Source: Oligoflexales bacterium (GTDB lineage Bacteria > Bdellovibrionota_B > Oligoflexia > Oligoflexales > RGVZ01). From it: a DNA stretch of 64,000 bases. A program made the translations under genes and the position numbers. The notes beneath the pieces were generated by a model. It did not search any database. It saw nothing but the letters and a program-made list of their open reading frames with translations, and was not told the origin of the DNA. The stretch covers positions 620,001 through 684,000 of the forward strand of contig CANLUT010000002.1 in assembly GCA_947494335.1 (NCBI GenBank), read 5' to 3'. Shown one piece after another: positions 1-8,283 of the stretch. Positions within the stretch are counted from its first letter, which is position 1, and the number at the start of each line of letters is the position of its first letter.

Positions 1-1254
1 GCTGCCGTGCCCAATTCCAGTCGTTAACAGACCTATGATGGGAATCGTCCATCCGGCCAAACCACCAAGTGTCCAATGAAGAACGAGACTGGCCGACGCC
101 GCAAATATAAACGGATACAAAACTAAAAGACTACGTAAAAATGGAGCCCAAGGCAGACCAAAAAATATTCTAATTTCTTCAGTAAATTTCGATTTTTCAT
201 CAAGGAATAAGAGGATTTTTGAGGGACTATTCGCAGAGAAAAGAATGCAAAATACTTTCGAGATCATTTCTCCATTTGTTCTGATAATTCGCAGAAGAAG
301 TGCGTCATAAACCTGAAAGCGAAAATGTCCGTAGGACGTGGTCGCTAAACCAGTCAAATGCCGAAGGTTTCTCTGGAAAGAGTAGCCTGTGCTTGCTTTG
401 ACCATACCAGCAGCACTACCAATGACCTGGATAACTGAACTAGAGTCAGACCCTGGGAATTTCGGCTCCGCATTGAGAGTCATGGGAATAGCACCTGATT
501 CTACCTTGAGGATTTGGAAGTCTGGTAAGCAAAGCTTGCTAGAAATATATTCTCGAAGTATTGACTCACACTTTTCCAATGAGATCCTGTTGGCTGCAAA
601 CACCGTAAATTCGACCAAAGCGCGACGTCGATCAAACGGTAAAACATACACAAAGCGAACTTCGCCGCGTTGTTCAAGCCTAAAATCCATCAAGTCCACT
701 ATTTGCGGATCAAAGTAATCCCGCTCTGTTTCAAGTTCAAAACCGAGGAAATACTGTAATAATTCGGACTTTTCGACAGTCACAGAATTATAGATACGCT
801 TGGCTGAAAACGTCTGGCCAGACGCGGTCGTGACGACGGCTATCCTCTCTGCGTTGACCTCCTCGGGTCGCTCTAGAATCTCGGTGACAGAATCTTTGAG
901 TTTTTGAAATCTTATATCGTTTTCGAGTCTTTGCTTGATTTTGATTAGGAGGCGGTCCCCGGGAATTCTCTCGTAGTAGTAATCACCAAAGTTACAGATA
1001 ATTGGCCGACCATCTGTCGAAGTTATCCGAAATTTCTCCCAGCGGTTTTCGATACAATCTGAATAACGATGGGGAGTGGTTGTTTTAAGGCGCCATGAGG
1101 CAAATGTCTTGGATGAAAGCGACTCAGGGTCTGGATCGATGATCGCAACTCGAAGATCTTTTGACGGGTCATCTGCAAGAATATCGGCTTGCATCAGACC
1201 CGCTAACCCACCACCAACGATTATGACGTCGAAATCTGTCAAATTGGAGACCAT
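1..1254 (-). CDS. crtY: Lycopene beta-cyclase (CrtY family), C-terminally extended, cut by window edge
   Basis: The frame runs 418 codons from ATG 1254 to the left edge without a stop. It would cyclise the psi ends of lycopene to beta rings, using a flavin cofactor at the membrane. Seen: a dinucleotide fold at residues 10-20 (VIIVGGGLAGL), FDP at 181-183 with LMDFR at 188-192, and FVYVLPF at 201-207 followed by ALVEFT, all typical of CrtY. The family normally ends near the PFLRSLL at 371-377. Here a hydrophobic stretch follows (379-412) and ends at the edge in TGIGHGS (412-418), which resembles the GxxHG motif opening Brp/Blh carotene dioxygenases; a cyclase/Brp fusion is inferred, not proven. 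The start overlaps the glycosyltransferase gene by 16 bp, so it is the last visible gene of the cruF operon. Confidence 0.85.
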   Translation of the reverse strand, partial: MVSNLTDFDVIIVGGGLAGLMQADILADDPSKDLRVAIIDPDPESLSSKTFASWRLKTTTPHRYSDCIENRWEKFRITSTDGRPIICNFGDYYYERIPGDRLLIKIKQRLENDIRFQKLKDSVTEILERPEEVNAERIAVVTTASGQTFSAKRIYNSVTVEKSELLQYFLGFELETERDYFDPQIVDLMDFRLEQRGEVRFVYVLPFDRRRALVEFTVFAANRISLEKCESILREYISSKLCLPDFQILKVESGAIPMTLNAEPKFPGSDSSSVIQVIGSAAGMVKASTGYSFQRNLRHLTGLATTSYGHFRFQVYDALLLRIIRTNGEMISKVFCILFSANSPSKILLFLDEKSKFTEEIRIFFGLPWAPFLRSLLVLYPFIFAASASLVLHWTLGGLAGWTIPIIGLLTTGIGHGS

Positions 1255-2396
1255 TTTATCAGCCTCCCTTTCCACTCATAGCGACCACTCTGACTGGTCC
1301 TTAGGGCCTTGTAAGCAGCGATGTCCAATAGCAGTAAACTGAGCGGGTGCAGCAGTAGATCACGAAGTGGCATCATAAAACATTTAGCCACTAAAACCCT
1401 GCTCAAAGCCAACAAACAAAGTGAAATAAAGGCCAACTCGGGTCGAAAAAAATAACCCCAAATTGGAAATAGAAAAACAAAATTAATAAATCCGATAACG
1501 CATCTAAAAACCGACGGTGTACCACCACCGATCGCCACTAGATTTTTCGAAAATCCAGCCAAGGTAGCCCGCCAATCGGGGTACATCGATACCCGAATGT
1601 GACTCGCTGAGAGAACTGGCTGAAGACCACGACCTGTGACTCGGTGAATCTGACGCGCCAGTTCGACGTCCTCTAACGGGGTCGAACCAAGACCTCGGTG
1701 ACCGCCGCTTTTACAATAGTCCCTCTTGAAGATGGCGACCCATTGCCCATTTGCCATCTGCATCGATTGCAAGGGTAAGCGCCACGAGCAAAACAAGGGT
1801 AGCGACATCATTAATGGAAGATGCATAATCCATGGTATCAGTAAACGCTCACGCAAGCCTTGGCACGACTGTGCTGGTAAAGCCGATAACCCGGACATTA
1901 GCTCGCGCGCCCGTGGCTGCATCAAGAGATCTACGGTACAACGAACAGCGCTGGGCGAGGGTCGCACATCGGCGTCGCAGAAAATTAAAATATCTCCATT
2001 AGCTAAGTCGGCAAGTTGTGCGCAAGCATGAGCTTTCCCCGAGATTTCTTTACTATCGTTCCATGGGACTCCCCGCACGATCTTTAATGGGATAGTAGTA
2101 TTTGACAAGAACGAGTTTGCAATCGCTGAGGAGTCGTCGTGAGACTCGTCATCTAAAATAATCACCTCCATTGGTCTGTAAGTTGATGCCAGCAGATTCG
2201 TCAGAAGGTGGGGGATATTTTCGGCCTCATTTCGAACAGGTATGAGTAAACTGACCAGGGGTTTTTCACCTGAATATTCAGTCACACTTCCCAGTTTAGT
2301 TGCAAAAATTGCATTAAGGATGACCATTATCGTGGAGATAACAATGACCGAGAATGAAATCAAACTTACGATGTTACTGAGGAGGGTTAGATCCAT
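1239..2396 (-). CDS. Family 2 glycosyltransferase, probably carotenoid glycosyltransferase (CruC/CruG/CrtQ-like)
   Basis: A 385-residue membrane GT-A glycosyltransferase. Residues 12-32 form an N-terminal membrane helix. The nucleotide-sugar fold starts at VSLLIPVRNEAEN (48-60), with LDDESHD at 81-87, the metal-binding DAD at 141-143, and an LED acceptor/base motif at 241-243. Several hydrophobic helices lie after about residue 295. Between cruF, an acyltransferase and crtY, its likely job is to transfer a sugar to the tertiary hydroxyl made by CruF. Family members of this layout act in myxol glycoside, chlorobactene glucoside and staphyloxanthin pathways; which sugar and which carbon cannot be read from sequence. 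The ATG at 2396 lies inside the 3' end of the acyltransferase gene (10 bp overlap). Confidence 0.8.
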   Translation of the reverse strand: MDLTLLSNIVSLISFSVIVISTIMVILNAIFATKLGSVTEYSGEKPLVSLLIPVRNEAENIPHLLTNLLASTYRPMEVIILDDESHDDSSAIANSFLSNTTIPLKIVRGVPWNDSKEISGKAHACAQLADLANGDILIFCDADVRPSPSAVRCTVDLLMQPRARELMSGLSALPAQSCQGLRERLLIPWIMHLPLMMSLPLFCSWRLPLQSMQMANGQWVAIFKRDYCKSGGHRGLGSTPLEDVELARQIHRVTGRGLQPVLSASHIRVSMYPDWRATLAGFSKNLVAIGGGTPSVFRCVIGFINFVFLFPIWGYFFRPELAFISLCLLALSRVLVAKCFMMPLRDLLLHPLSLLLLDIAAYKALRTSQSGRYEWKGRLIKWSPI

Positions 2397-3055
2397 CGGT
2401 GGACGCCTCCTGCTAGTAAAGTCTGGGGTGCGTTCAAGGATGCTACATCTAAAATTTTTGTGACTTCAGTCTCTAAAGTTTTATGATCAACTTCAGTACG
2501 CGCGCTATCAATTGGTTGACCGGCGTAAATGAAGGCCGTCGGCCTCTCATGATTCATAGGCTCAATGTGCAGCCCAATAGGAACGTACTGAACCCGACCT
2601 GTAATTTTAGATAGTATTTCAATTCCACGCAGAAAGCCGAGTGGCCGTTGCCGCAGTGGTGATATTTTCCCTTGTGGGAAAAATGTTAGAGTCCGATAAG
2701 GATTACTGGCAACCAGGTCTCGAAACTGCATAAAAGCTCGACGCACACTTGTTGGATTTCCCGGCTCTATTCCAAAGCAACCCACCTTGCGTAAGATTGG
2801 GAATTTCGCAAGTTCGCTTTCCAGCATCAATGAGAAGATACCGGATCCAGGCCTCAGGCGATTTTGGACTTCAAAGCAGAAAAAACCATCCCACCAGCTA
2901 ATATGATTTGGCACCAATATAACTGGTACCTCAGGATTCAGTTGACCAATGGCGTTTTTCAAATCGAAATGTATAGATGCAAAACATTTCTGGTACTTCC
3001 AATGGAGGTACCGATCCCAAAACCATCGGACAATGTCGTTATGTCGAGGTGCCAC
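2387..3055 (-). CDS. PlsC-type acyltransferase, probable carotenoid glycoside acyltransferase (CruD-like)
   Basis: A 222-residue lysophospholipid-acyltransferase fold protein. The HX4D catalytic motif is visible as NHISWWD (50-56), and the second conserved block reads FFPQGKISP near residue 125, where most relatives have FPEG (E to Q). The start is GTG at 3055, inside the end of cruF (17 bp overlap), and the stop overlaps the glycosyltransferase. Placement between a carotenoid hydratase and a glycosyltransferase suggests it esterifies the sugar of a carotenoid glycoside, as CruD does in green sulfur bacteria. A role in ordinary phosphatidic acid synthesis is less likely but not excluded. Confidence 0.75.
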   Translation of the reverse strand: MAPRHNDIVRWFWDRYLHWKYQKCFASIHFDLKNAIGQLNPEVPVILVPNHISWWDGFFCFEVQNRLRPGSGIFSLMLESELAKFPILRKVGCFGIEPGNPTSVRRAFMQFRDLVASNPYRTLTFFPQGKISPLRQRPLGFLRGIEILSKITGRVQYVPIGLHIEPMNHERPTAFIYAGQPIDSARTEVDHKTLETEVTKILDVASLNAPQTLLAGGVHRWI

Positions 3056-3920
3056 GGGTCAATAATCCGAGCTGCAAAGTCCCTCGCGTGAAACTAAAAA
3101 GACAGAGTAATAATAGTGTAACGGTCGTAAGAACAACAGGTGACCAGGCTGATCCAGCAATTGAAAGACCAACCGGAAGGGACAGGCTTAACAAGTAAAA
3201 TTTGGCAGGCCACGAACGCTCAAAGCGATGGCCATAATTTGATAAACCCAAAATCTCAAAACTGAGGAATATTAAAAAGCCGGTGAGCAACCATCCAAAA
3301 AGATTTCTGACGGCAACTCCTAAGAAAAAGACCCCAGACTCTTCCCAAATCCAGTAAGGAGTTAACTGACTCATGGCAGGCTCCAGGGTGAAATCCCAGG
3401 CGACTAGGAGCAATGATGCTATGATGATCCGTCCGAGGGGATGCGCCAAGCGACCTATAGAGCCTCGAGAGGCTCTCAGAGGTTTAGGCCCAAGAATCTG
3501 ATTTGCTAGCAGATAACAACACAGAGCCATGCAAAACCAACTCACAGGAATCAACACAGGAACTTTATCGCCAAGCTTCCATCCAAGGAGGCTCGTATAG
3601 GAATATTTGCCAAACGGGATACCGTAGCTTGTGCCGCCAAATTCCATAAAAAAACTGATCAAAAAAGCAGGCAGAAAGTACACCAGCCAACGCCAGCCCA
3701 AAACTTTGTGGGCGGCCCTTATGCACAACCAAAAGCAAAGAAGAATCTGCAATCTAGCAAAAAGCGGGTATGATATGGCATAAATTGGCGGAGACCACGG
3801 ATAGCGCGCAAAAAGCTCTGGATGTAGCGTAAAAGTTGCGTATCCAAAAATTGATATGGCATTAATGAAAAGCAAGGCCCACATTGGGGAGAAGAATAGC
3901 ACATGAGTCACTCGGGGCAA
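3039..3920 (-). CDS. cruF: CruF-type carotenoid 1',2'-hydratase
   Basis: An integral membrane protein of up to 293 residues with about seven hydrophobic helices. The conserved family block is EFGGTSYGIPFGKYSY (93-108), followed by KVPVLIPVSWF (119-129), with WDFTLEPAM near residue 195. CruF adds water to the open psi end of gamma-carotene or lycopene. The start is uncertain: the longest frame begins at TTG 3920, inside crtW on the other strand; an ATG at 3884 would leave 18 bp between the two divergent genes. No good Shine-Dalgarno sequence precedes either. It heads a minus-strand operon with acyltransferase, glycosyltransferase and crtY, all overlapping. Confidence 0.85.
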   Translation of the reverse strand: MPRVTHVLFFSPMWALLFINAISIFGYATFTLHPELFARYPWSPPIYAISYPLFARLQILLCFWLCIRAAHKVLGWRWLVYFLPAFLISFFMEFGGTSYGIPFGKYSYTSLLGWKLGDKVPVLIPVSWFCMALCCYLLANQILGPKPLRASRGSIGRLAHPLGRIIIASLLLVAWDFTLEPAMSQLTPYWIWEESGVFFLGVAVRNLFGWLLTGFLIFLSFEILGLSNYGHRFERSWPAKFYLLSLSLPVGLSIAGSAWSPVVLTTVTLLLLCLFSFTRGTLQLGLLTRGTST

Positions 3921-4664
3921 GGATATTTAGGACGTACGACAGTCATCAGCAGTGACAGCACAGCTCCGGCCTTAGGATGTTTAGTCGTTACCACATGGGT
4001 TGTAAGCCTTTGGTATGCGTTTACGCGCGTTCAAACAGGTGTTTTCCCTGACTCTTTAGCCAGCATTGCCTTAATGCTCTGGATGCAGTTTCTTTATTGT
4101 GGTCTATTTATCGTGACCCACGATGCCTGCCATGGCACTGCGTGGCCCGGAAATCCGAGGCTGAATCGATGGCTGGGGAAAACTACAGCGATGCTGTATG
4201 CGGCCTTTGATTTCGATCATCTGGTCCCGAAGCACCTTGCTCATCACGCTCATGTTGCAACCCTCCAAGATCCAGATTTCCACGATAATACTCGGCAGGG
4301 GAGAGGTTTTTCCGCCTGGGGTTGGCGATTTTTTAAGCATTATCTGAGCCTAAGGCAAATTCTTATCATGATGGCTGTGGCTCAGATTTTTTTTCATGTG
4401 CTGAATATACCGGAGAGAAACGTCATCCAATTTTGGATCGTCCCAGCTATTTTGAGTGGCATGCAGCTCTTTCTATTCGGCACTTGGCTACCACACAGGC
4501 CAAAAGCTGGTGAAGAGTTTCCCGATCGTCATCACGCGAGAGACTCTGGACTACCTTGGTTATTATCACTCGTTTCCTGCTGGCATTTCGGCTACCATCA
4601 TATTCATCACTTGAAACCCAGCGTGCCTTGGTACAGGTTACCGTCCTATAGGAGGCGAAAATGA
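3903..4664 (+). CDS. crtW: Beta-carotene 4-ketolase (CrtW)
   Basis: A 253-residue di-iron membrane oxygenase of the fatty acid desaturase superfamily that puts a keto group on C4 of a beta ring. The histidine clusters are clear: HDACH at 73-77, HLAHHAH at 111-117 followed by DPDFH at 123-127, and HFGYHHIHH at 228-236. FGTWLPHRP (192-200) is a CrtW signature that separates it from general desaturases. It is the only pigment enzyme gene on the plus strand, lying between cruF and crtB; its ATG is at most 18 bp from the cruF start. The stop overlaps the next small gene by ATGA, with AGGAGG just upstream. Confidence 0.93.
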   Translation: MSHSGQGYLGRTTVISSDSTAPALGCLVVTTWVVSLWYAFTRVQTGVFPDSLASIALMLWMQFLYCGLFIVTHDACHGTAWPGNPRLNRWLGKTTAMLYAAFDFDHLVPKHLAHHAHVATLQDPDFHDNTRQGRGFSAWGWRFFKHYLSLRQILIMMAVAQIFFHVLNIPERNVIQFWIVPAILSGMQLFLFGTWLPHRPKAGEEFPDRHHARDSGLPWLLSLVSCWHFGYHHIHHLKPSVPWYRLPSYRRRK

Positions 4665-4867
4665 AATTGCGATCGATCTTAATGTGGACCACGGGTGGCG
4701 CGTTGTTTGGAGTCGCCTTCGGAGCGATAGCTTCTATCTTTCAAGGTGGTCCAGATATGATGCGAGGTATCCAGGAATCATGGTGGTGGTTTGGCGTCGC
4801 TGGATTTTTGATATCAACGATCGGCAACGGCAGCGATCCCGCGAGTGGCTCTAGTCAATCTCATTGA
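4661..4867 (+). CDS. Small membrane protein coupled to crtW, unknown function
   Basis: Encodes 68 residues with two hydrophobic segments (about 7-27 and 41-54) and a polar Ser-rich tail. The ATG overlaps the crtW stop as ATGA, and AGGAGG sits at a proper distance upstream, so translation coupled to crtW is likely. The last 54 bp overlap the 3' end of crtB on the opposite strand. No family is recognised. It may be a small partner of the ketolase or the carotenoid membrane complex, but that rests only on position. Confidence 0.6.
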   Translation: MKLRSILMWTTGGALFGVAFGAIASIFQGGPDMMRGIQESWWWFGVAGFLISTIGNGSDPASGSSQSH

Positions 4868-5698
4868 CCCCAGTCCTTTGATCTTGAATACAAGTAATAG
4901 ACCCTGAGCGACTGCGACTAACTTGCCCAGATTCGAAACCACAGTTCGCCTGCGGAACGCAGATTCTGGATTTACTTTCGCAGATCGCAACAGTTTATGC
5001 CCAATTCGCTGATAAACCTTACCTGCGATTGCAATGGCAAAAGACACTCTCCAAGGCAGCCAGTAGATCCCTTGAAATCCATGTTCATACAACTCGTCTG
5101 CTCTTCGAAGTAGTTTGTTGACCGCATAGTGCGCAATTTCAGGATTGGTCGACAAAACCTTTGCGTCGATATTAACCAAAAGATCTTTGGGTATATAGAT
5201 GCGACCAATACTTGCATCGGCTTGGATATCTCGGGCGATGTTAGTCAACTGCATCGCAGAGCCCAGAGAAATAGCGTGAGCACTTGCCTGGTCAGGATGA
5301 GCTCCGAGAAGTGGGCACATCATAAGTCCTACGACGCCCGCGACACGAAAGCAATACTGTTCGAGCTCTTTGAGATTCCCGTAGCGGCAGCCTTCCACAT
5401 CCATGCGCATACCGGCAATGAATTCTGATCGCTGCCAGTCATCTAGCCAAAGCGGTCCAGAAAGAGCTGCATTTACTGACCCACGATTTTCCATCAGGGA
5501 AAGTCGTGCCTCTGCCGACTGCGAGTCAGGTGCATCATCGATGGCGTCATCACAGCGCCTACACCACTGATAAAGAAGTAAGACTTTGTCTCGGCAGCTC
5601 TTCGGCAGGAAAAGTGAGGCTAAGGAGAAACTTTTTGAGCCTTGCTTGATGACTTCAGCTGGAGACGAAGTAAAGTTAATTGTTTGTGAGTAAGTCAT
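4814..5698 (-). CDS. crtB: Phytoene synthase
   Basis: Head-to-head condensation of two GGPP to phytoene. The 294-residue protein has both aspartate-rich diphosphate-binding motifs: DDAIDD at 50-55 and NIARDIQAD at 153-161, plus the conserved GRIYIP (165-170). ATG 5698 is preferred over an upstream TTG (5725) because GGGAG lies about 6 bp ahead of it; it gives a 23 bp overlap with crtI. Third gene of crtE-crtI-crtB, converging on crtW and the small gene. Confidence 0.95.
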   Translation of the reverse strand: MTYSQTINFTSSPAEVIKQGSKSFSLASLFLPKSCRDKVLLLYQWCRRCDDAIDDAPDSQSAEARLSLMENRGSVNAALSGPLWLDDWQRSEFIAGMRMDVEGCRYGNLKELEQYCFRVAGVVGLMMCPLLGAHPDQASAHAISLGSAMQLTNIARDIQADASIGRIYIPKDLLVNIDAKVLSTNPEIAHYAVNKLLRRADELYEHGFQGIYWLPWRVSFAIAIAGKVYQRIGHKLLRSAKVNPESAFRRRTVVSNLGKLVAVAQGLLLVFKIKGLGSMRLTRATRGIAAVADR

Positions 5699-7232
5699 GC
5701 GTCGCTCCCGGCTCGCGACTTCCAACGGGGAGAGCTGCCTTCAAGTCTTGAAGTACCAAAGATGCAGTAGCCTTAGCCGAGTTGACGACTCCTGGAACGC
5801 CGGCGCCTGGATGAGTCCCAGCCCCTGTAAAGTACATTCCAGCAACTCGACCATCGCGGTTATGAGTGCGAAAGAATGCGCTTTGCCAGAGTACGGGTTC
5901 ACTGGAAAACGCTGAGCCCAGGTGTGAGTTTAATTCAAATTTGAAATCCAACGGAGTGAAAATCTTCTGAGTCACAATGTGCTTGCGCAGGTCGGGAGCG
6001 TAATGTTGCTCAATATAACTTAATATACGGTCTGCGTAGGCTGGGCCTTCCTTTTGCCAGTCTAAATGAAGATTTCCGAGGTGCGGCACTGGAGATAGAA
6101 CGTAAAATGCTTCACACCCTTCAGGCGCCATCCCTGGATCAGTCCGCGTCGGAGCATGCAAGTAGAGAGAAAAATCATCCGGGATTTTACTAGCCTTGGA
6201 AAAGATTTGACTCAAAAGTCCACGGTAGGACTTTCCGAAAAGAATATTATGATGTGCAAGCTCTGGATACTGTTTGTTAGTACCAAAATACACTAAGAAT
6301 AATGACATGCTTTGCGAGTGACTAAGAACCTTCTTTCGTCCTTGCTCTGCCTCGGGGGCGTTTCTTAGAAGATGGCTGTACGTGTGTACAACATCCGCGT
6401 TGGAAACAACAACATCACAAGGCCATACGCCGCTTGCAGTTTTCACACCACTAACGTGACCCTCAGTTGTGATGATCTCCTCCACTGGCGACGATAATCG
6501 AACCTCACCACCGAGCTCTTCAAAGAGTCTGACTAATGCACGAACCAAAGCACCCGTGCCACCGCGTGGGAAGAAGACACCCCACTTTCGCTCAAGATAG
6601 TGGATCAAAGTATAAATAGAAGACGTTTTAAAAGGGTTGCCGCCAACCAATAGCGTGTGAAAACTGAAGGCTTGACGGAGCTGAGGATCCTTGATGAAAC
6701 GTGCGACCGTCTTGAAAACTGAGCGATGAGCGCTTAGTTTGGCTAGCTGCGGAGCGACACGGATCATGCTCCACCAGTTTAGGAACGGCACGTGGGCTAG
6801 TTTCGTGTAACCCTCGTCAAAAACCTCTTTTGAATATTTCAGAAATCTGGAGTAGCCATCCGTATCTTGTGGGGATTTTTTTTGAATTTGATCAAAAGTG
6901 CTTACGGGGTCGTTGGAGTAATCAAATGAAAACCCATTCTCCCAGAATAATCGATAGAAGGGCGTCACAGGCATCATCTCGACGTAGTCTTCCATCCTTT
7001 TACCGGCACAGTCGAAAAGTTCTCGCAAACAGTCTGGAGCAGTGATGACAGTCGGTCCGGCGTCAAACGTAAAGCCTTTGTCCCGGTAAACGTATGCCCG
7101 GCCTCCGGGTTGATCCCGTTTTTCAAACACTACAACCTGATGGCCTGCCGCTTGCAATCGGATGGCGGCAGCAAGACCTCCAAACCCACTTCCAATGACA
7201 GCAATACGAGCAGAGTTCTTATTTTTATGCAT
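5676..7232 (-). CDS. crtI: Phytoene desaturase (CrtI)
   Basis: A 518-residue FAD amine-oxidase-fold enzyme that desaturates phytoene, probably to lycopene. The Rossmann motif IAVIGSGFGGLAAA is at residues 10-23, and the C-terminal family signature GAGTHPGAGVPGV is near 470-482. Length and both end motifs fit CrtI; a specialised CrtD or CrtN role is less likely because it sits between crtE and crtB. The ATG overlaps the crtE stop by 8 bp. Confidence 0.94.
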   Translation of the reverse strand: MHKNKNSARIAVIGSGFGGLAAAIRLQAAGHQVVVFEKRDQPGGRAYVYRDKGFTFDAGPTVITAPDCLRELFDCAGKRMEDYVEMMPVTPFYRLFWENGFSFDYSNDPVSTFDQIQKKSPQDTDGYSRFLKYSKEVFDEGYTKLAHVPFLNWWSMIRVAPQLAKLSAHRSVFKTVARFIKDPQLRQAFSFHTLLVGGNPFKTSSIYTLIHYLERKWGVFFPRGGTGALVRALVRLFEELGGEVRLSSPVEEIITTEGHVSGVKTASGVWPCDVVVSNADVVHTYSHLLRNAPEAEQGRKKVLSHSQSMSLFLVYFGTNKQYPELAHHNILFGKSYRGLLSQIFSKASKIPDDFSLYLHAPTRTDPGMAPEGCEAFYVLSPVPHLGNLHLDWQKEGPAYADRILSYIEQHYAPDLRKHIVTQKIFTPLDFKFELNSHLGSAFSSEPVLWQSAFFRTHNRDGRVAGMYFTGAGTHPGAGVPGVVNSAKATASLVLQDLKAALPVGSREPGATHDLLTNN

Positions 7233-8283
7233 ATGCAGTCATCACTTTCTGTGCCAGCTCTCGTAGCGAGGATATTGCCGCCACTTGCGCGCTAGTTTCG
7301 ACGATACAATTTAACTGATCCAAACATGTTTCGAATTCTGTCGTTGCTAATTCATGAGCCTTCTCGACGACTCGCTTTAAGAGTAATGAATCATCACTAG
7401 AAATTTGATTAGGATTTCCCATCAAGTGCTGAAATCTCATAAATTCCGCCGCTTCAAGTTCTCTGGCAGCTACAGCCCAAACCCAGGAAGGCCTGACTAG
7501 TGGCCTACTGATCGTTTGATTCTTATTTTTTGGCGATACATCTCCAATGTCGTTAAACATCTGTAAGGCCACGCCGAAACGCTGACCGAATTTTGCCAGA
7601 CAGCGGCGTCTCATTGAGTCCGCCTCACCCACGATTGCGCCTAATTCAGCACACATACCAGTTAGCTCGCCAGTCTTCAGTTCTATCGCTGCAACGGAAA
7701 TATCGAGCGCTTTCTGTTGAGAGCATTGGGTCATGTCGTGGCCAAGGTCAAGAGCCTGCCCCTGATGAGCGTACAGCATGGTCTTGTGGAAAAGACGGTA
7801 GATCTCGAGCTCAACGGATGGATTAAGAGCCTGCTGACGCAGTAAATCTATTGGCCAAAAATAAAGCCAGTTCGCCGCATTGATGGTACGTGGAACTCCG
7901 ATCTGCATATGCAGCGCCGCCTTGCCGCGGCGCATTTCGTCTGCATCTTGGATGTCATCGATCATGAGTGAGCCAGCATGCAAGGCTTCAACCACGCATG
8001 CCAAGCAGTCGAGAAGTGATTGCTGGCTTGCGATCAAGGGTTCAGCCTTAGTATTGGCGATAGTAAATCCAATGTGAACTAGTTGCGCACGAACCTGCTT
8101 GGAATTACGACTTGCAAACTCACGAACCGGTGCTACCAAAGCAGCGTCTAAACTAGGATCAGAGGCGCTCGGTAGATGAGCAGCTAAAATAGGCACTAGC
8201 TCGGACCGGGTGTTATTATTTTGCAAGTATGTTTTATGATTTATCACCGGGAGAAGGGTAATAGATGTCTCAGTCGGGGTCAA
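7225..8283 (-). CDS. crtE: Polyprenyl diphosphate (GGPP) synthase
   Basis: Makes the C20 diphosphate used by CrtB. The first aspartate-rich motif DDIQD (109-113) is followed by a conserved RRGKAALH block. The second motif reads QMFNDIGD (241-248), so its first Asp is replaced by Asn. The longest frame starts at a TTG (8283) without a visible Shine-Dalgarno sequence, so the N-terminus is uncertain; a GTG about 12 codons in is an alternative. First gene of the crtE-crtI-crtB operon, with the promoter expected in 8284-8512. Confidence 0.88.
   Translation of the reverse strand: MTPTETSITLLPVINHKTYLQNNNTRSELVPILAAHLPSASDPSLDAALVAPVREFASRNSKQVRAQLVHIGFTIANTKAEPLIASQQSLLDCLACVVEALHAGSLMIDDIQDADEMRRGKAALHMQIGVPRTINAANWLYFWPIDLLRQQALNPSVELEIYRLFHKTMLYAHQGQALDLGHDMTQCSQQKALDISVAAIELKTGELTGMCAELGAIVGEADSMRRRCLAKFGQRFGVALQMFNDIGDVSPKNKNQTISRPLVRPSWVWAVAARELEAAEFMRFQHLMGNPNQISSDDSLLLKRVVEKAHELATTEFETCLDQLNCIVETSAQVAAISSLRELAQKVMTAYA

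Follow-up and report, generated by a model that had tools for sequence, protein, structure and literature searches.

Retinal supply is a key step of rhodopsin phototrophy, and little is understood of how beta-carotene is divided between retinal and the pigments of an antenna. Natural fusions of carotenoid-pathway enzymes have been described, including CrtYB, CrtIBY, CrtIB, and the CrtI-CrtB-CrtYc/d-Blh protein of Thecamonas trahens. The latter resembles the protein described here in that it carries a cyclase and a C-terminal Blh domain in one polypeptide, and it has been proposed to make retinal directly. However, it is eukaryotic, its cyclase belongs to the small CrtYc/d class of membrane proteins, which is unrelated to FAD-binding CrtY, and it additionally includes CrtI and CrtB. 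The CrtIB protein of Candidatus Pelagisphaera (Verrucomicrobiota) is, like ours, a natural bacterial fusion within a rhodopsin/retinal cluster, but it joins phytoene desaturase to phytoene synthase and not a cyclase to a cleavage enzyme (PMC10284914).

Where rhodopsin clusters carry crtY and blh as individual genes, these cover the same two pathway steps with members of the same families. In contrast to the fusion, they encode two proteins, and the Blh known as 66A03 has His192 at a position where the fusion has serine. The closest solved relatives of the rhodopsin at our locus are the xanthorhodopsin of Salinibacter ruber, known with its carotenoid salinixanthin, Gloeobacter rhodopsin, and Kin4B8, with which it has in common a glycine and a tyrosine at the carotenoid site and a keto-type pocket. 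However, CrtYcd rather than CrtY has been reported from S. ruber (PMC5877348), and the antenna of the organism studied here is a prediction. In the open-licence papers that we searched, we found no report of a fusion of FAD-type CrtY to Blh, or of any bacterial cyclase-Blh fusion.

We analyzed a stretch of 64,000 nucleotides (the window, G000:C2:620001-684000) from a member of the Oligoflexales, which NCBI places in Bdellovibrionota, together with the DNA to its left (L002, in which window base 1 is L002:14001). The window begins within a gene that joins a CrtY-type lycopene cyclase to a Brp/Blh domain. Judging from the sequence, we think it likely that this gene encodes a membrane-bound bifunctional enzyme that takes lycopene to retinal for a rhodopsin, and whose beta-rings also feed a ketocarotenoid antenna. 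The flavin-dependent N-terminal half would close beta-rings on lycopene at the cytoplasmic face, and the multi-helix C-terminal half would perform central 15,15' cleavage by means of His-bound iron, yielding retinal for the neighbouring xanthorhodopsin-type proton pump. The cyclase would also supply rings to a CrtW/CruF/glycosyltransferase/acyltransferase pathway, whose salinixanthin-like ketocarotenoid product would probably serve this rhodopsin as its light-harvesting antenna. With the two halves tethered, ring formation and cleavage would be coupled, and retinal supply would track cyclisation. The gene would then provide a single-gene module that converts lycopene to retinal, and the presence of a cyclase-dioxygenase fusion beside a rhodopsin makes substrate hand-over directly testable.

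The crtY-blh fusion gene

The frame lies on the minus strand and is open from an ATG at 1254 or a GTG at 1275 down to base 1 of the window. It continues for 774 more bases to the left, ending in a stop codon at G000:C2:619227 (L002:13227). The predicted protein has 675 amino acids from the ATG and 682 from the upstream GTG. We favour the ATG, since the relative in genome G008 has a TGA in the upstream extension and reads intact from the ATG. Features of the fusion and of the carotenoid genes that adjoin it are collected in Table 1.

Table 1. Positions of the fusion, its parts and adjoining carotenoid genes, counted from window base 1
Feature	Position	Strand	Remarks
crtY-blh fusion, in-window part	1..1254	-	codons 1-418 of 675 counted from ATG
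Brp/Blh (BCD) domain, first 14 codons	1..42	-	residues 405-418, ending GIGHGS (His416); PF15461
Junction	43..120	-	residues 379-404; added hydrophobic helix between cyclase and Blh core; hydropathy
Lycopene cyclase domain (CrtY-type, FAD-binding)	121..1230	-	residues about 9-378; Pfam PF05834, E 4e-50
Family 2 glycosyltransferase	1239..2396	-	PF00535, E 2e-16; overlaps fusion start
PlsC-type acyltransferase	2387..3055	-	PF01553, just above cut-off
CruF-like carotenoid 1',2'-hydratase	3039..3920	-	PF04240, E 1e-43
CrtW-like beta-carotene 4-ketolase	3903..4664	+	NCBIfam CrtW, E 2e-66; 224 bits vs cut-off 350
crtB, phytoene synthase	4814..5725	-	Pfam SQS_PSY, E 2e-52
crtI-type phytoene desaturase	5676..7232	-	TIGR02734, 664 bits vs cut-off 238
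crtE-like polyprenyl diphosphate synthase, probably geranylgeranyl	7225..8283	-	PF00348, E 6e-34

An earlier note, made from the window alone, had observed that the cyclase frame runs on past PFLRSLL, where the CrtY family usually ends, and had suggested a fusion to a Brp/Blh protein. Both points are borne out by the DNA beyond the window. The in-window protein ends in LLTTGIGHGS, and no stop codon follows soon after the edge. Instead, the unbroken frame proceeds through a complete BCD domain (GHGSVDHLL...HFGEAN...FWHGWDS...SHAPV), in which the aspartate that had been anticipated soon after GHGS appears immediately (GHGSVDH). The further His-bearing helices that had been predicted extend over about 260 residues and score above the cut-offs of both Pfam BCD (PF15461, 112.4 bits against 28) and NCBIfam TIGR03753 (121.7 bits against 95.25). 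In the 682-residue frame, Pfam places Lycopene_cycl at 16-308 (E 4e-50) and BCD at 415-667 (E 4e-32), and the joining of these two families in one frame is far beyond chance.

Actinobacterial CrtY proteins end approximately 14 residues past PMLRT, the counterpart of PFLRS in the fusion, and therefore the join sits just after a complete cyclase. An extra hydrophobic helix, at about residues 375-400 by hydropathy, then leads into the Blh core. A start-codon scan of the junction revealed no ATG or GTG from which a separate Blh could begin; TTG is the one alternative start codon there, at residues 379 and 399. For the orthologue L028, AlphaFold gives a pLDDT of 56 for the whole fusion and 45 for the Blh half, and the cyclase core alone is usable. 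When the fusion was searched by sequence against solved structures, no significant relative emerged.

Those orthologues that bear names come from metagenome-assembled genomes, and the G023 copy is interrupted by a contig end, as might be the case if the fusion were due to misassembly, a frameshift error or gene decay. However, the same join occurs in six separate assemblies from two families. In addition, among close relatives the junction protein sequence is identical and synonymous changes dominate, with dN/dS of about 0.12-0.17 in both halves of the protein, both of which are under purifying selection. An artefact has next to no probability and is refuted by the conservation of the join among the orthologues.

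Cyclase and Blh halves of the protein

The cyclase half carries a GGGLAG dinucleotide motif and matches PF05834 with 171 bits (cut-off 23.4) over a span that includes the FAD domain. Along its full length, it is about 30% identical to Streptomyces proteins that carry a lycopene cyclase family annotation. The glutamate of the CrtY motif (L/I)(V/I)E(D/F/Y)T is essential for cyclase activity. We aligned the half with Streptomyces, Pantoea and Persicobacter CrtY proteins. Its counterpart of this residue, Glu215 (LVEFT), is invariant and aligns with the glutamate of LIEDT in Pantoea CrtY; other CrtY-invariant residues are also retained. The match to the NCBIfam CrtY equivalog TIGR01789 reaches 54 bits where the cut-off is 215.2, and for this reason we class the half as a divergent cyclase and not as that equivalog. 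The score for TIGR01790 is also below cut-off. With such a score, the enzyme may form a single ring, two rings or a different product.

Scores below both NCBIfam cut-offs might also be seen if the N-terminal half were another carotenoid-acting flavoenzyme of the same superfamily, with the ring made elsewhere. Consistent with this, the best solved-structure matches of the cyclase-core model of L028 are geranylgeranyl reductases and flavin monooxygenases, and an ordinary CrtY is encoded apart from the fusion in two relatives (G027 and G023). These structures belong to the superfamily that is expected. However, the Pfam score far above cut-off, the identity to Streptomyces cyclases, and the retained motif glutamate all point to a cyclase, and both CrtW and Blh need rings for which we found no other cyclase in the genome (in a search of two families, no other PF05834 match over cut-off and no PF18916-type protein). 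We therefore regard a different flavoenzyme as very unlikely. Since CrtW depends on rings as well and the families searched gave no second cyclase, part of the cyclised product must escape cleavage.

The first 14 residues of the Blh domain, His416 among them, are encoded inside the window, and residues 419-675, among them D420, H421, H466, H590, S594 and H655, lie to the left. In PMC9227343, His21, His78, His188 and His192 are given as essential in 66A03 Blh (Kim et al. 2009), and the His192Ala mutant is given as having less than 5% of activity left. Our alignment comprised 31 Blh domains including four fusions; the G023 fusion, whose part with the 192 position is on another contig, was left out. 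The 66A03 sequence used here was checked by its BCD score alone. The earlier note had looked to the continuation for the Brp/Blh histidines, an expectation that holds for three of the four reported essential ones and fails for the fourth. His416, His466 and His590 are the counterparts of His21, His78 and His188 and are invariant across the 31 domains, as is a further C-terminal histidine, His655. The His192 position, in contrast, is Ser594 in all four aligned fusions, and the Arg191 that precedes it is replaced by aspartate. Among the 27 other sampled Blh domains, the 192 position is histidine in 26 (including all from Actinomycetota) and glutamine in the solo Blh of genome G036.

Bacteroidota Blh proteins may carry serine at the His192 position. 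We probed the Pfam and NCBIfam models with single substitutions in the fusion. The score drops by 6-8 bits when any one of the four retained histidines is exchanged. In contrast, changing Ser594 to histidine gains only 2-3 bits, and changing it to alanine loses 1-1.5 bits. These model scores suggest that serine is a sizeable minority state at the 192 position and that the four kept histidines are near-invariant. Since the position seems to vary by this measure, we regard His192 as belonging to the enzyme that was studied and not to every family member. The fusions offer a natural test of which histidines Blh needs.

The serine and aspartate of the aligned fusions, together with the activity loss of the His192Ala mutant, could alternatively mean that the cyclase half is active and that, for want of a metal-binding histidine, the chemistry of the Blh half is lost or altered, this half serving as a membrane anchor, as a carotenoid carrier, or in cleavage of another bond. 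We consider this improbable. Purifying selection acts on the Blh half, the four other family-invariant histidines are kept, and serine is acceptable to the family models to the extent described above. In addition, all of the fusions adjoin a rhodopsin, a protein that depends on retinal, and among the families searched the window's genome gave no other gene for making retinal (no other BCD protein, PF15461, and no RPE65-type cleavage enzyme, PF03055).

Five residues past His416, the fusions carry His421, which is also found in 22 of 23 Actinomycetota Blh domains and is absent from 66A03. His421 may be a metal ligand in the fusions. A ligand swap peculiar to the fusions, with His421 in place of His192, was considered and rejected, as most Actinomycetota Blh domains have both histidines. 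A tentative proposal, to which we assign a lower chance than to the bifunctional enzyme as such, is a one-chain retinal synthase in which beta-carotene would be handed from the cyclase to a Blh site that would bind its iron in another way, for instance through His421 instead of the lost His192.

The neighbouring rhodopsin and carotenoid genes

The organism had been expected to possess a rhodopsin, and one is encoded by the very next gene to the fusion (L002:12425-13186). This gene lies to the left and is convergent with the fusion, with 40 bp from stop to stop, and its ATG has a GGAG motif ahead of it. Numbered from a TTG at L002:12407, the protein has the pump residues DTE (Asp98, Thr102 and Glu109), the Schiff-base lysine Lys234, and Gly155 and Tyr206 at the carotenoid site. 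In published criteria, a glycine marks the rhodopsin carotenoid site, and the pocket bottom is hydrophobic for 4-keto and polar for 3-hydroxy carotenoids (PMC12308411). By these criteria, the hydrophobic pocket stretch MLPMF is of the keto-carotenoid type, which agrees with the crtW-like ketolase gene in the window. The neighbour is thus probably, to judge by these residues, a xanthorhodopsin-type proton pump with a predicted carotenoid antenna.

A strong hairpin at L002:13220-13265 spans the final codons of the fusion gene together with the gap to the rhodopsin gene. It has a T run on each strand and RNA folding z-scores of -6.9 and -5.8, and looks like a shared bidirectional terminator of the two convergent genes.

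On the other side of the fusion is a series of carotenoid genes (Table 1). The glycosyltransferase has weak similarity to CruG and HpnB, below the cut-offs, and is a probable carotenoid glycosyltransferase. The PlsC-type acyltransferase, on account of its position, probably acylates the carotenoid glycoside. The CruF-like hydratase matches NCBIfam CruF with E 2e-40, which is below the equivalog cut-off, and the crtE-like synthase falls below the cut-offs of the GGPP synthase models. The crtB gene is the sole SQS_PSY match in the genome. On this gene content, the pigment is probably a monocyclic, glycosylated and acylated ketocarotenoid similar to salinixanthin. Two FA_hydroxylase genes elsewhere in the genome (frames of 250 and 301 amino acids) were considered as CrtZ candidates and set aside, as they look sterol-desaturase-like by length and motif. 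Between window positions 1239 and 3920, the glycosyltransferase, acyltransferase and CruF-like genes overlap each other and the fusion, as if co-translated.

Distribution within the phylum and beyond

Among 58 genomes of the phylum, BCD was found in seven, in six of them as the fusion. Three further fusions, in genomes of another genus (G006, G007 and G008), are 62-63% identical to that of the window over the whole length. Those of G027, from another family, and G023 share 48% and 46% identity, respectively, the last in two pieces divided by the contig end. The relatives with names are metagenome assemblies labelled as Oligoflexales, Pseudobacteriovorax antillogorgiicola or unplaced Proteobacteria. 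Lake names (LacPavin and Loclat) appear in two of these records, and by our reading of the isolate codes the others also come from lakes. The locus places antenna-type rhodopsin phototrophy, as predicted from the genes, in lake Oligoflexales. The two halves of the window fusion are 65% and 61% identical to those of L028, and 46% and 49% identical to those of L031. The halves have therefore diverged in step, suggesting that the domains have evolved together from the time of the fusion.

The fusion adjoins a rhodopsin gene in all six genomes, a xanthorhodopsin in one family and a proteorhodopsin in another. The co-presence of fusion and rhodopsin across the 58 genomes has a Fisher P of 5e-6, a value that ignores kinship. 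Loci L028-L030 keep the order crtI, crtB, crtW, cruF, acyltransferase, glycosyltransferase, fusion, rhodopsin, and in L031 and L032 (from G027 and G023, respectively) the fusion is preceded by a proteorhodopsin-type gene that is read in the same direction. The rhodopsin partner thus differs between families, a convergent xanthorhodopsin in one and the genes of L031 and L032 in the other, and the fusion is kept.

The ordinary CrtY genes of G027 and G023 lie elsewhere in these genomes, and the G027 copy scores over the TIGR01789 cut-off. Their presence means that the fusion could there be a dedicated retinal route. Under the one-chain proposal, the fusion in this family would serve retinal apart from the pigment route. 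G027, which is listed as 95% complete, has no SQS_PSY phytoene synthase match, possibly due to an assembly gap; its sister G023 has one.

The seventh BCD protein is the solo Blh of G036 (L042:1483-2319), a genome without a rhodopsin match; this protein has no histidine at the 192 or 26 position. Four genomes of the phylum (G047, G048, G040 and G049; L051, L052, L057 and L058) have a rhodopsin and no BCD match. In G006, a second rhodopsin-like frame of 213 amino acids (G006:C2:26746-27279; L059, L060) matches the family in two separate pieces, and is perhaps a shortened or decaying copy.

Outside the phylum, BCD is present in 24 of 396 Actinomycetota genomes, and no fusion was seen among them. 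Long frames in this group (478-678 amino acids) were considered as candidate fusions, and the five longest were rejected because by Pfam they hold BCD alone, with no cyclase. The remaining Actinomycetota BCD frames have at most 428 amino acids and are therefore too short for a full cyclase and Blh. A scan of contigs across the whole collection used patterns of the cyclase half only, such that it would miss any fusion whose cyclase is strongly divergent from this one. Viral contigs gave no relatives with the fusion, its Blh half or other Blh proteins as queries. In plasmids, the fusion as query recovered stand-alone cyclases alone and its Blh half gave no match. The 66A03 Blh sequence, checked by its BCD score as above and used as a plasmid query, recovered three Blh genes annotated as stand-alone, and both of the two that we inspected adjoin rhodopsin genes.
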